NCBI RefSeq assembly: GCF_029582805.1
Contig: NZ_JAKKUT010000002.1
Location: forward strand, 186,001 to 250,000
Source of the DNA: Candidatus Synechococcus calcipolaris G9
GTDB taxonomy: Bacteria; Cyanobacteriota; Cyanobacteriia; Thermosynechococcales; Thermosynechococcaceae
Direction of reading: 5' to 3'
Length of the DNA stretch: 64,000 nucleotides
The notes beneath the pieces were generated by a model that ran no database searches, was not told where the DNA came from, and was given only the letters and a program-made list of their open reading frames with translations. Below, piece after piece: positions 28,952 through 52,684 of this stretch (positions within the stretch are counted from its first letter, which is position 1; every line of letters begins with the position of its first letter). The translations under genes were made by a program, and so were the position numbers.

Positions 28952-28987
28952 CTCGATTAATCGAGGTGCCCTTAAGTATAATTTATT
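28952..28987. repeat. Terminal-repeat remnant with palindrome
   Basis: CTCGATTAATCGAG (28952-28965) is a perfect palindrome. It runs into CGAGGTGCCCTT (28962-28973), which recurs at the right end of the inverted repeat near 51.66 kb. The following TTAAGTATAATTTATT (28972-28987) recurs at 46418. This is likely one end of an inserted element next to the cobA 3' end. Confidence 0.5.
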
Positions 28988-29963: not shown

Positions 29964-30560
29964 ATGATCGTCAGTCCTTCCGTCCACCTGCCGAAGACCT
30001 TGCGTGTCACCGACGAAGAGTTCCTGGAATTCGTCAAATCTAACCCTGACATCAGGTTCGAGCGCGCCGCTGTCGGCGAATTAATTGCTATGTCTCCTAC
30101 TGGAAGCCAAAGTGGACATTATAATTCGGAGTTAAATGGCGATGTTGTCCTTTGGAATCGGCAGCAGCGACTGGGCAAAGTATTTGATTCCTCCACGGGT
30201 TTTCACTTACCGAATGGTGCGATTCGCTCCCCTGATGTGGCCTGGGTTGCTCAAGATCGCTGGGATGCCCTTGCCGTAGAGCAACAAAAAGGGTTTGCGC
30301 CCCTTTGTCCTGATTTTGTGATTGAGCTAGTCTCGGAAACCGATGATTTAGCAACGATTCAAGCCAAAATGCAGGAATACATCGAAAATGGCTGTCGGCT
30401 GGGTTGGTTAATTAACCCCAAAACTAGAACTGTTGAGATTTATCGATGTGGGGGTGGGGTTGAAATGGTTTCTTTTGATACTGCGATTTCTGGAGAAGAC
30501 GTTTTACTGGGATTTCAACTGAATTTGCGGGTTTTGTTTTCTAAAGGGCACATCGAATAA
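29964..30560 (+). CDS. Uma2-family (DUF820) nuclease-like protein
   Basis: The 198-residue protein has the Uma2 fold of PD-(D/E)XK nucleases: ELIAMSPTGSQSG near 42, IRSPDVAWVAQDRW near 92, then FVIELVSETDDLATIQAKM near 120, in which the acidic residues and lysine form the presumed metal site, and LGWLINPKTRTVEIYR. The family is massively expanded in cyanobacteria and has no proven cellular role. It stands alone between cobA and the tRNA-Arg gene. Confidence 0.85.
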   Translation: MIVSPSVHLPKTLRVTDEEFLEFVKSNPDIRFERAAVGELIAMSPTGSQSGHYNSELNGDVVLWNRQQRLGKVFDSSTGFHLPNGAIRSPDVAWVAQDRWDALAVEQQKGFAPLCPDFVIELVSETDDLATIQAKMQEYIENGCRLGWLINPKTRTVEIYRCGGGVEMVSFDTAISGEDVLLGFQLNLRVLFSKGHIE

Positions 30561-30719
30561 TCCTCAAAAGCATTGTGAATATGCGATCATGCTGGAGAAT
30601 ATTCCATGATTTCAAGCAGGCTATGGGACAAAAACGATCTTGGGACGTAGACGATCGCCCTGAAAAATGATCAGCAAAGTAGCTTAGAGTAGTTAATCAC
30701 TAGCAAGAAAAAAGGGGAA

Positions 30720-50624: not shown

Positions 50625-51578
50625 CTAGGCTAGGGGACTTAATTGTAGTTCCTGGGATAGCCTGCGTAAAAAACACAGACCAAAAACGGAATTCCCGCTG
50701 GCATCTAGGGGGGGACTATAGCTGGCGATCGCCCCTTGTCCAGGCACAATGCCCACCATGGCACCACTGACCCCAGACTTGATGGGTAGACCAATATCAA
50801 TGGCATAGTCCGCCGAGCGTTCGTAGAGACCGCAGCTAAACATGAGGGCATTGACAACTTGACGGTGGCGGGTTTGAATCTGGGGCTGCCCTCCGGCGAG
50901 TAAAAGCCCTAATCGGGCCAGATCTGTCACCGTTCCCCTCAAGCAACAAATACAGTTATAGATTTCCAAGGCCATTTCCCCATCCTGAATGTGGCCCGCC
51001 AGTTCCAGTAGCCGGGCCAAGGCTCGATTCTGCCAATTGGGGTGACAGTGAACTTGGTGTAAAATCTGTCGATCTAGACTTAGGTGACAACCGGCCTGGT
51101 CATTTAGCCATTGGGCCAGACGATCGCAGGCATGGCGGGGGGTTTTCCCCTCCAGGTTGGCGGCGAGCCGAATTGCGCCACTATTGATCATGGGATTGCG
51201 GGGGAAGCCTTGATCCAGTTCCAATTGCAAGACAGAGTTATAGGGTCGCTCCGAAGGAAATCGCCCCACATGGCTAAAGACATCTTCAACGGAAGACTGG
51301 TGCAGCATATAGAGCAATAAAAAGGGTTTAATCACACTCATCAATGGAAAGGTAGCGGCGATCGCCCCCCATGAATGAACAGAGCCGGCTAGGGTTTGGA
51401 TATTGACCGCCACCGCACCGCGATCGGGAGGAGGTAATCGCTCCAGGGTTTCCCCCCCACTGGCCAAAGCTTGGCACTCCTGAATCCACGGATTAAGTTG
51501 AACGGTTGTCAAGGACGTCAATTGCACCAAAGATGCCCCCACATTGACTGGAACCACTGCCTTTTCACTATAGGGCAC
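50625..51578 (-). CDS. glsA: Glutaminase A
   Basis: The 317-residue enzyme hydrolyses glutamine to glutamate and ammonia and has the serine-lysine beta-lactamase-like fold. The catalytic SxxK is in FPLMSVIKPFLLLYML (about 79-94). Other conserved segments are FPSERPYNSVLQLELDQGFPRNPMINSGAI and KSGVSGAMVGIVPGQGAIASYSPPLD. The start is uncertain: the outermost GTG (51576-51578) lies inside an inverted-repeat element. Later GTG or TTG codons, or a start near residue 30 (NPWIQECQ), also fit. Confidence 0.92.
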   Translation of the reverse strand: MPYSEKAVVPVNVGASLVQLTSLTTVQLNPWIQECQALASGGETLERLPPPDRGAVAVNIQTLAGSVHSWGAIAATFPLMSVIKPFLLLYMLHQSSVEDVFSHVGRFPSERPYNSVLQLELDQGFPRNPMINSGAIRLAANLEGKTPRHACDRLAQWLNDQAGCHLSLDRQILHQVHCHPNWQNRALARLLELAGHIQDGEMALEIYNCICCLRGTVTDLARLGLLLAGGQPQIQTRHRQVVNALMFSCGLYERSADYAIDIGLPIKSGVSGAMVGIVPGQGAIASYSPPLDASGNSVFGLCFLRRLSQELQLSPLA

Positions 51579-51671
51579 CTCGTTAATTCAAAATTCGGGG
51601 CGATCGCAAACGAGATTTCAATGGTTTCAGCCTCTATTTTTAGCAGATCGAGCAATTTTTCGAGGTGCCCT
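51572..51671. mobile_element. MITE-like element with 11-bp perfect terminal inverted repeats
   Basis: AGGGCACCTCG (51572-51582) and CGAGGTGCCCT (51661-51671) are exact reverse complements and bound a 78-base AT-rich core with one HIP1-like GCGATCGC. TA precedes the left end. The right arm word CGAGGTGCCCTT recurs at 28962. It sits between glsA and the ChaN-like gene and overlaps the glsA start codon. No transposase is inside. Confidence 0.6.
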
Positions 51672-52538
51672 TTAGGAGTTGATCCAAAACCAATCGGCAA
51701 TTCCTGGGGTTTGGCGATCGCCCTCGCTGGGATTGAGTAAAATAATTTGCTGTTGAAAAGAAGGGGCATCTTCTAAACGACGGGCCACCCGATCTGGAAT
51801 ACCATAGCCGTAGCGCACATGACCCTGGCCCGCCAATACAACGACTAAATGCTCCGGGTGGGCTTCAACATAATTGGCGATCGCGGCGGCCATGGTTTCA
51901 TCCCAGAGAACTTGGGCCTGGAAAAATTTATCTAAATCCAGGCTATGGCTTTGGCCCTGGTGAGCCTCTCGGAAAATTTGTGCCAATTGTTGCCGGTATG
52001 CCTCATTGCTAAGATCAATCTCATCAAGGGGAGGAATATAGGTTTGCTCCTCACGGCTGAGGCTATTAAGGCCCTCGCGGGCGACTTTGCGGGTGACTTC
52101 CGTGGGCGTATTTAGGGCAATCAGGGGGACCCCGTTCTCCTTAGCAAAGCGAAAAATGGGGGCGTACAACTGCCAGGAAAATCCCCACCGCTGGGCATAC
52201 TCCGTTTGCTCCTGTAGCTCGAGTTCCGTTAATTCGCCGGCAATATAGCCATCTAGGACTGCTTGAAAGGGGCGTTGAATCATCTCCAGGGCGATCGCTA
52301 GGGGCCGTTTTTGGTAGAGTTGATCAATGATGGTTAGTTGGGCTTGGTGATCCGCCACCCGATCGTGGGTTTCCCCGAGGTAAATCACCGTACTATGGCT
52401 AAGCTCCTGGAGGGTCTTTTCCATCATTACAGGGGGTGCAGTCCGGGCATCGAAGACTTGCTGGGACTGGACTACGGGGATATTAATTAAGCTAAAAATG
52501 ACCAACCCCAGAATAAAGCCCCAGAATAAGCGATACAT
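51672..52538 (-). CDS. ChaN-family (DUF399) protein
   Basis: The 288-residue protein has a signal peptide or anchor (MYRLFWGFILGLVIFSLINI) and a ChaN domain. The family core includes VIYLGETHDRVADHQAQL, PLAIALEMIQRPFQAVLDGYI, FAKENGVPLIALNTP and LVVVLAGQGHVRYGYGIP. Relatives bind haem or act in iron acquisition. I use the ATG at 52538 because it starts at the hydrophobic segment; the frame also opens at 52631. Its stop abuts the inverted-repeat element. Confidence 0.85.
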   Translation of the reverse strand: MYRLFWGFILGLVIFSLINIPVVQSQQVFDARTAPPVMMEKTLQELSHSTVIYLGETHDRVADHQAQLTIIDQLYQKRPLAIALEMIQRPFQAVLDGYIAGELTELELQEQTEYAQRWGFSWQLYAPIFRFAKENGVPLIALNTPTEVTRKVAREGLNSLSREEQTYIPPLDEIDLSNEAYRQQLAQIFREAHQGQSHSLDLDKFFQAQVLWDETMAAAIANYVEAHPEHLVVVLAGQGHVRYGYGIPDRVARRLEDAPSFQQQIILLNPSEGDRQTPGIADWFWINS

Positions 52539-52684
52539 TAATTTAGGTGAATAGTTCTCCCCTAACCCCTTGGGGGATGTCAAATTAGCGAATATTTGCA
52601 ATGATCGAAGAACGTCCATAACGTTTATCATGACGCTTGTCTCGCTCCTTTGTTATTTAAGGCTTGGGTTTCCACTGACGACTT

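Follow-up and report, generated by a model that had tools for sequence, protein, structure and literature searches.

The window, a 64,000-nucleotide stretch of the Candidatus Synechococcus calcipolaris G9 genome, carries a glsA-like glutaminase gene and, upstream of it on the same strand, a ChaN/Tiki-like gene, with a short element bounded by terminal inverted repeats at their junction. Table 1 lists the features. The initial annotation had described perfect 11-bp inverted repeats, AGGGCACCTCG, and these are present at positions 51572 to 51582 (plus strand) and 51661 to 51671 (minus strand). Comparison with other copies placed their 11th, outermost A/T pair in the flank, outside the 98-bp element; this pair, at 51572/51671, looks like part of an imperfect target duplication, TATA/TTTA. 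The copy at 51573 to 51670 is one base short of a 99-bp family, with the gap adjoining the left repeat, and its family core, GGCTGAAACC, is on the minus strand. The element is short (98 to 99 bp), ends in 10- to 11-bp repeats, and contains no transposase ORF, as a MITE does.

Table 1. Features at the chaN-glsA junction and related ends in the window
Feature	Position	Strand	Remarks
glsA-like glutaminase ORF (PF04960)	50625..51578	-	GTG 51578-51576 inside left repeat
Presumed left copy of 4-bp target duplication, TATA	51569..51572		Putative duplication; 3/4 bases match
Non-autonomous 98-bp element	51573..51670	-	From copy comparison; 99-bp family
Left terminal inverted repeat, GGGCACCTCG	51573..51582	+	Perfect, 10 bp
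Right terminal inverted repeat, GGGCACCTCG	51661..51670	-	Perfect, 10 bp
Presumed right copy of 4-bp target duplication, TTTA	51671..51674		Putative duplication; includes TAA stop of upstream gene
ChaN/Tiki-like haem-uptake family gene (PF04187)	51672..52631	-	Stop codon one base from element
Terminal repeat of one-ended relic (GGGCACCTCGATTAATCGAGTTTTCA...)	28962..28971	-	Element side towards lower coordinates
5'-end relic of IS5-family parent	30546..30670	+	Aligns with relic at C2 34.1-34.5 kb; right boundary approximate

Within the window alone, the repeat at one mismatch or fewer was observed 4 times against 0.99 expected, a count that 2 of 100 shuffles reached; this is modest evidence, and it is the genome-wide copies that decide the existence of a family. 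A DNA search at E ≤ 10 gave 44 matches in the host assembly (3.30 Mb, 8 contigs). The assembly holds 17 full-length copies including 51573 to 51670 (E = 1.3e-79 to 2.1e-22), dispersed over contigs C1, C2, C5, C6, and C7, of which the other 16 are 83 to 98% identical to it, together with four more fragments of 24 to 61 bp (E ≤ 2e-5). A diverged 99-bp copy at C2:1849332-1849430 lay outside these matches and was detected by pattern; the 16-position pattern GGGCACCTCGANNAAT, at two mismatches or fewer, had 68 matches in the host genome versus 12 with a reversed control. The proposed repeat family is therefore borne out by the 16 further full-length copies and the diverged one, and the genome search that the initial annotation had suggested, in which the lack of any other copy would have spoken against a family, did recover further repeat pairs.

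The similar end noted previously at 28.95 kb is real and its repeat is exact; however, it is one-ended and does not represent a second copy of the 100-bp element, and for this reason we regard it as related debris and not as a second MITE. It has a 27-base end in common with C2:1277252, and over 39 bases it matches C2:621019 at 87% identity. It is probably a 3' end of the parent insertion sequence (IS); the adjoining DNA had no transposase remnant. The relic at C2 34.1 to 34.5 kb, with which the 30546 end in the window aligns, still encodes a transposase N terminus. Broken ends in the host, two of them within the window (28.97 and 30.55 kb), look like remains of a parent IS. At L027:1595-2509 (host contig C1 near 188.5 kb), a family copy adjoins a CRISPR-like array of 13 repeats with 71- to 75-nt spacing, directly at its outermost repeat, which is degenerate; an ORF pair nearby resembles VapBC.

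RNA of either strand is predicted to form a terminal hairpin with a 10-bp outer stem, and the hairpin at 51573 to 51670 beats 199 of 200 shuffles on the minus strand and 196 of 200 on the plus strand (z = −3.1 and −2.3). Such folding would fit a conserved cis-regulatory or structured RNA element belonging to the chaN-glsA junction; nonetheless, the copies adjoin unrelated sequence, and an Rfam scan of the element gave no match at E ≤ 1. Moreover, when relatives of glsA and chaN were scanned for end pairs at 60 to 320 bp, none was near 100 bp, and L046 and L062 contained chance-like pairs only, with 4 mismatches and at 239 to 302 bp. We consider a junction RNA very improbable. Plasmid and phage collections gave no match to the element, although near records were possibly left out.

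Exact 4-bp duplications (TAAT, TATA, AGCA, TTAA, and TAAA, with edges set at the repeats) flank 5 of 18 host copies (permutation mean, 0.99; P = 0.0014). They also flank 13 of 24 rows from other genomes, two of which overlap at L227 and one of which, L262, is doubtful (mean, 0.96; P = 5e-5, the lowest value that the test can give). At other duplication lengths, the same 42 rows gave one instance at 2 bp, none at 3 bp, one at 5 bp, and none at 6 bp. In a larger, overlapping set from other genomes (repeats with at most two mismatches, 97 to 100 bp), 26 of 39 copies have a 4-bp duplication, and in genus g87, which partly includes the same copies, 15 of 19 distinct rows do. The g87 copies occupy different surroundings: a single pair of distinct copies (L333 and L337) has similar flanks, 82% identical over 127 bp, and the remaining flank matches are one copy fetched twice. 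The gene beside one g87 copy is present in four other genomes, three of which are without such a repeat in the fetched stretch, in a comparison that aligned a single flank and in which the fourth genome (L316) contains repeat-like strings. None of the copies had a strict empty site among the genomes searched, which include no other member of the host's genus. Exact duplications are absent from 13 of 18 host copies, including 51573 to 51670 (TATA/TTTA); this fits older insertions, yet it is the main weakness of the MITE reading.

The duplications also bear on a REPIN-like element moved by a RAYT (Y1) transposase, a reading suggested by the length of about 100 bp, the two inverted ends, and the hairpin potential. 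RAYT elements carry GTAG or a related tag and, to our knowledge, make no target duplication. The present family does make one, of 4 bp, and a DDE-type IS has the same ends, so that this reading is extremely unlikely.

Candidate mobilizers with these ends occur elsewhere in cyanobacteria. Genome G116 has a 1448-bp segment that lies between these ends, is flanked by TATA duplications, and encodes a DDE transposase split into two halves by a frameshift; for the halves, Pfam gave DDE_Tnp_1 (PF01609; E = 1.8e-24) and DUF772 (PF05598; E = 2.2e-20). Against the IS5 model NF033581, the halves scored E = 1.5e-40 and 6.6e-36 (139.4 and 124.1 bits, with a cutoff of 140). Genomes G083, G088, G215, and G249 contain IS of 1236 to 1261 bp that combine the same ends with an exact 4-bp duplication and have open frames of 310 to 360 codons. 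The IS5-model scan covered the G116 halves; the transposases of G083, G088, and G215 are tied to these by a match to a G116 half, and that of G249 is linked through a match to the host relic. Among 16 chosen MITE- or end-bearing genomes, 7 had matches to a G116 transposase half, G088 alone having 37. A 4-bp duplication was present in 13 of the 68 longer end pairings listed, and most of the remainder arise by chance; the IS were therefore chosen by duplication and transposase together. G116 also contains a 331-bp element (L235:458-788) with the same ends and TATA duplications, a relative of intermediate size.

In the host genome, the G116 transposase query had no match, and the IS5 model had 10 subthreshold matches. 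Two of these, C2:34141-34338 and C8:188657-188854, are N-terminal pieces. In the relic at C2:34141-34481, the repeat at C2:34481 precedes the transposase N terminus, which is 53% identical to that of G083 over 118 columns (E = 1e-34). The other eight weak matches fall in the later part of the model, some in open frames of 299 to 390 codons, and since no pair of family ends was seen around them, they probably belong to other IS. Thus, a transposase with the same ends, which the initial annotation had proposed to look for, was found in other cyanobacteria, whereas the host yielded broken IS pieces only. The family was likely mobilized by IS5-family elements of about 1.25 kb that share its ends and its duplication length; in the host, the mobilizer could also be a different resident transposase. 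In these elements (NF033581; 1.24 to 1.26 kb in the four genomes), the repeats read GGGCACCTC(G/T)A; the present element, in contrast, is about 99 bp long and without a transposase gene, and the putative kinship is drawn from the ends and the duplication length, not from the element interior.

Altogether, the terminal repeats, the many copies at unrelated sites, the 4-bp duplications at a large share of copies, and the IS5-family elements elsewhere in cyanobacteria with the same ends and duplication length indicate that 51573 to 51670 is a MITE, a non-autonomous element of the 99-bp type with IS5-family terminal repeats. We put the probability of this reading at roughly 0.9.

We also weighed a coding origin. 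In Rickettsia, RPE are coding palindromic elements that add in-frame peptides, and here a minus-strand frame, GHLEKLLDLLKIEAETIEISFAIAPNFEL, is open and 99 is a multiple of 3. However, 99 + 4 is not a multiple of 3, and interiors differ among elements of other genomes. When the host copies were compared with ORFs of at least 100 codons, 10 of 18 had neither edge inside an ORF, 6 had one, and 2 had both. An element of this type is scarcely conceivable here. A captured gene end had likewise been considered from the open minus-strand frame and an apparent gene tail at L027; this tail is the CRISPR-like repeat array, and a coding origin was therefore dropped.

The ORF coordinates confirm that the GTG start of the minus-strand ORF at 50625 to 51578 lies within the left repeat, and from this the initial annotation had proposed that the element supplies the glsA start codon or has replaced the original 5' end, giving the protein a new N terminus. 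The GTG is in frame and opens the longest glsA ORF, and a start at this residue or earlier is possible in 1 of 34 informative glutaminase relatives. In the other 33, however, no possible start codon was present at or before residue 1 when relatives were read ungapped upstream of the match, and the commonest position of the earliest possible start (17 of 34 relatives) is residue 17, a TTG here. These 34 are the relatives, out of 43 aligned, that match from residue 9 to 26 of the glsA ORF; the remaining 9 align from a later residue and tell less about the start. The Pfam Glutaminase domain begins at residue 51. A sigma-70 consensus scan of 51400 to 51900 gave no promoter-like site, and a terminator scan likewise had no hit. 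The comparison of starts argues that the element has no part in normal glsA initiation, and a start codon supplied or displaced by the element is improbable. Judging from the aligned relatives, the native start is likelier to be the TTG at 51530-51528 (codon 17), and the overlap of the element with the glsA start looks incidental. Separately, a contig titled Candidatus Gracilibacteria (L125) encodes a glutaminase 49% identical to that of the host and is possibly a misbinned cyanobacterial contig.

At the other edge of the element, the TAA stop of the ChaN-like gene occupies 51674-51672 on the minus strand. The ChaN match reaches residue 316 to 319 of 319 in 22 of 24 relatives listed, with a stop within nine residues after; since the relatives end alike, the stop is probably ancestral and the insertion target TAAA. 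Of 18 host copies, 6 (L001, L003, L006, L008, L014, and L018) have an edge on or within about 6 bp of an ORF stop, a pattern noticed after the fact and counted on ORFs of at least 100 codons taken mechanically. By comparison, random positions in these loci lie this near a stop in 1.1% of cases; for intergenic positions, the share is 4.3% (P = 8e-5 for 6/18), rising to 7.0% where a TA-type 4-mer precedes (P = 0.001 for 6/18); in other genomes, edges near stops were found in 3 of 37 copies versus a background of 1.4%. At L008, a TAG stop takes its last base from the leading G of the repeat. Gene interruption had been considered at L008 and L014, where long ORFs spanned the site after in-script removal of the element; the junction is at the last codon, and these are therefore gene ends, not interrupted genes.

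The family extends well beyond the host. The end GGGCACCTCGATTAAT, at one mismatch or fewer, occurs in 91 of 388 genomes sampled from the class, whereas its backwards control gave 0 in most genomes listed and at most 2 in any. A sequence-only profile built from 17 elements, four of which are 97 to 98 bp and need gaps, matched 81 of 388 cyanobacterial genomes and 47 of 160 genera at E ≤ 1e-4, a count that includes the genomes that supplied the profile and stands without a reversed-profile control. By label, and among the matches listed, these cover at least 22 families, in at least 11 of which the best E is 1e-10 or lower; counted by eye, at least 13 rows span 117 to 120 bp and at least 5 span 101 to 116 bp. 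Among 53 paired-end elements of 60 to 400 bp from other genomes (repeats with at most two mismatches), 32 are exactly 99 bp, 39 are 97 to 100 bp, and 7 are 118 to 121 bp, in a mixed set whose profile-fetched loci are biased towards 99 bp. For nine 99-bp representatives (seven genomes, three families), all 36 pairs were above the shuffle mean over the ungapped inner 59 bp, with an excess of at least 7 identities and the same orientation always best; P ranged from 0.0002 to 0.0122, single values being rough because the shuffling was mononucleotide and the representatives were preoriented by the core. L312 and L308, of a second size class near 119 bp, align with the 99-mers through a single 20-bp gap. 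Two genomes of different families share a stretch of 3,099 bp at 100% identity, a 99-bp element within it (L299, G005 contig 51; L300, G034 contig 2), which reflects either assembly cross-contamination or very recent transfer.

Cyanobacterial MITEs have been reported before. Nezha, one of these, is likewise small and non-autonomous. A 187-nt Microcystis MITE (PMC11448079) is also non-autonomous and has an IS partner with shared ends; according to the passages describing it, however, its GGCTCTTCG ends, 8-nt duplications, and ISL3 partner mark a different family. For Anabaena sp. 90, 147 MITEs of 77 to 541 bp and a 1275-bp IS5-group element, ISAsp21, have been described, and the authors state in their MITE account that the MITEs are without similarity to the ends of that genome's IS (PMC3542288); compared by description, these could overlap with the 99-bp family. 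The passages on MITEs and IS in PMC10969869, PMC3542288, and PMC11448079 do not describe the present ends. Among the papers listed, no account of the 99-bp family was found, and a search by the repeat letters had no title on cyanobacteria among the matches listed.

We propose trans binding of the repeats by an IS5-type transposase, followed by insertion of the element into a TAAA target that overlapped the ChaN-like stop codon. The insertion would have cost little, because the duplicated TAAA preserved that stop. The source of the transposase would since have decayed in the host, so that the copies could move again only if a related IS came in. Between the ChaN-like gene and glsA, the element would now act as a 98-bp spacer, with a hairpin possible in either transcript, and it would happen not to close the glsA frame, which makes the GTG in the repeat resemble a start.

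More speculatively, and in a form that we think may well be wrong, one MITE lineage could have persisted class-wide as a length-quantized element. Many families would share homologous 99-mers over their full length, and a sister form would exceed these by 20 bp, or roughly two turns of the helix, which would suggest that end synapsis on DNA this short tolerates certain spacings only. The conserved central core, GGCTGAAACCCTTG, would then be a bending or accessory-protein site. Such a lineage would have been kept alive by successive related IS5 transposases, not by one parent IS, and would survive partly by landing on stop codons, which the TA-rich target and the leading G regenerate.

These results remove the false lead of an unusual glsA start and describe a repeat family that would escape gene annotation. 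As a MITE, the element is ordinary in kind; its class-wide distribution with near-constant length is what deserves further attention. MITEs of prokaryotes are generally regarded as short-lived and restricted to close relatives. The breadth found here, across genomes and genera of the class, therefore makes the family a test case for non-autonomous elements outliving their parents, and also for spacing limits in short transposons.
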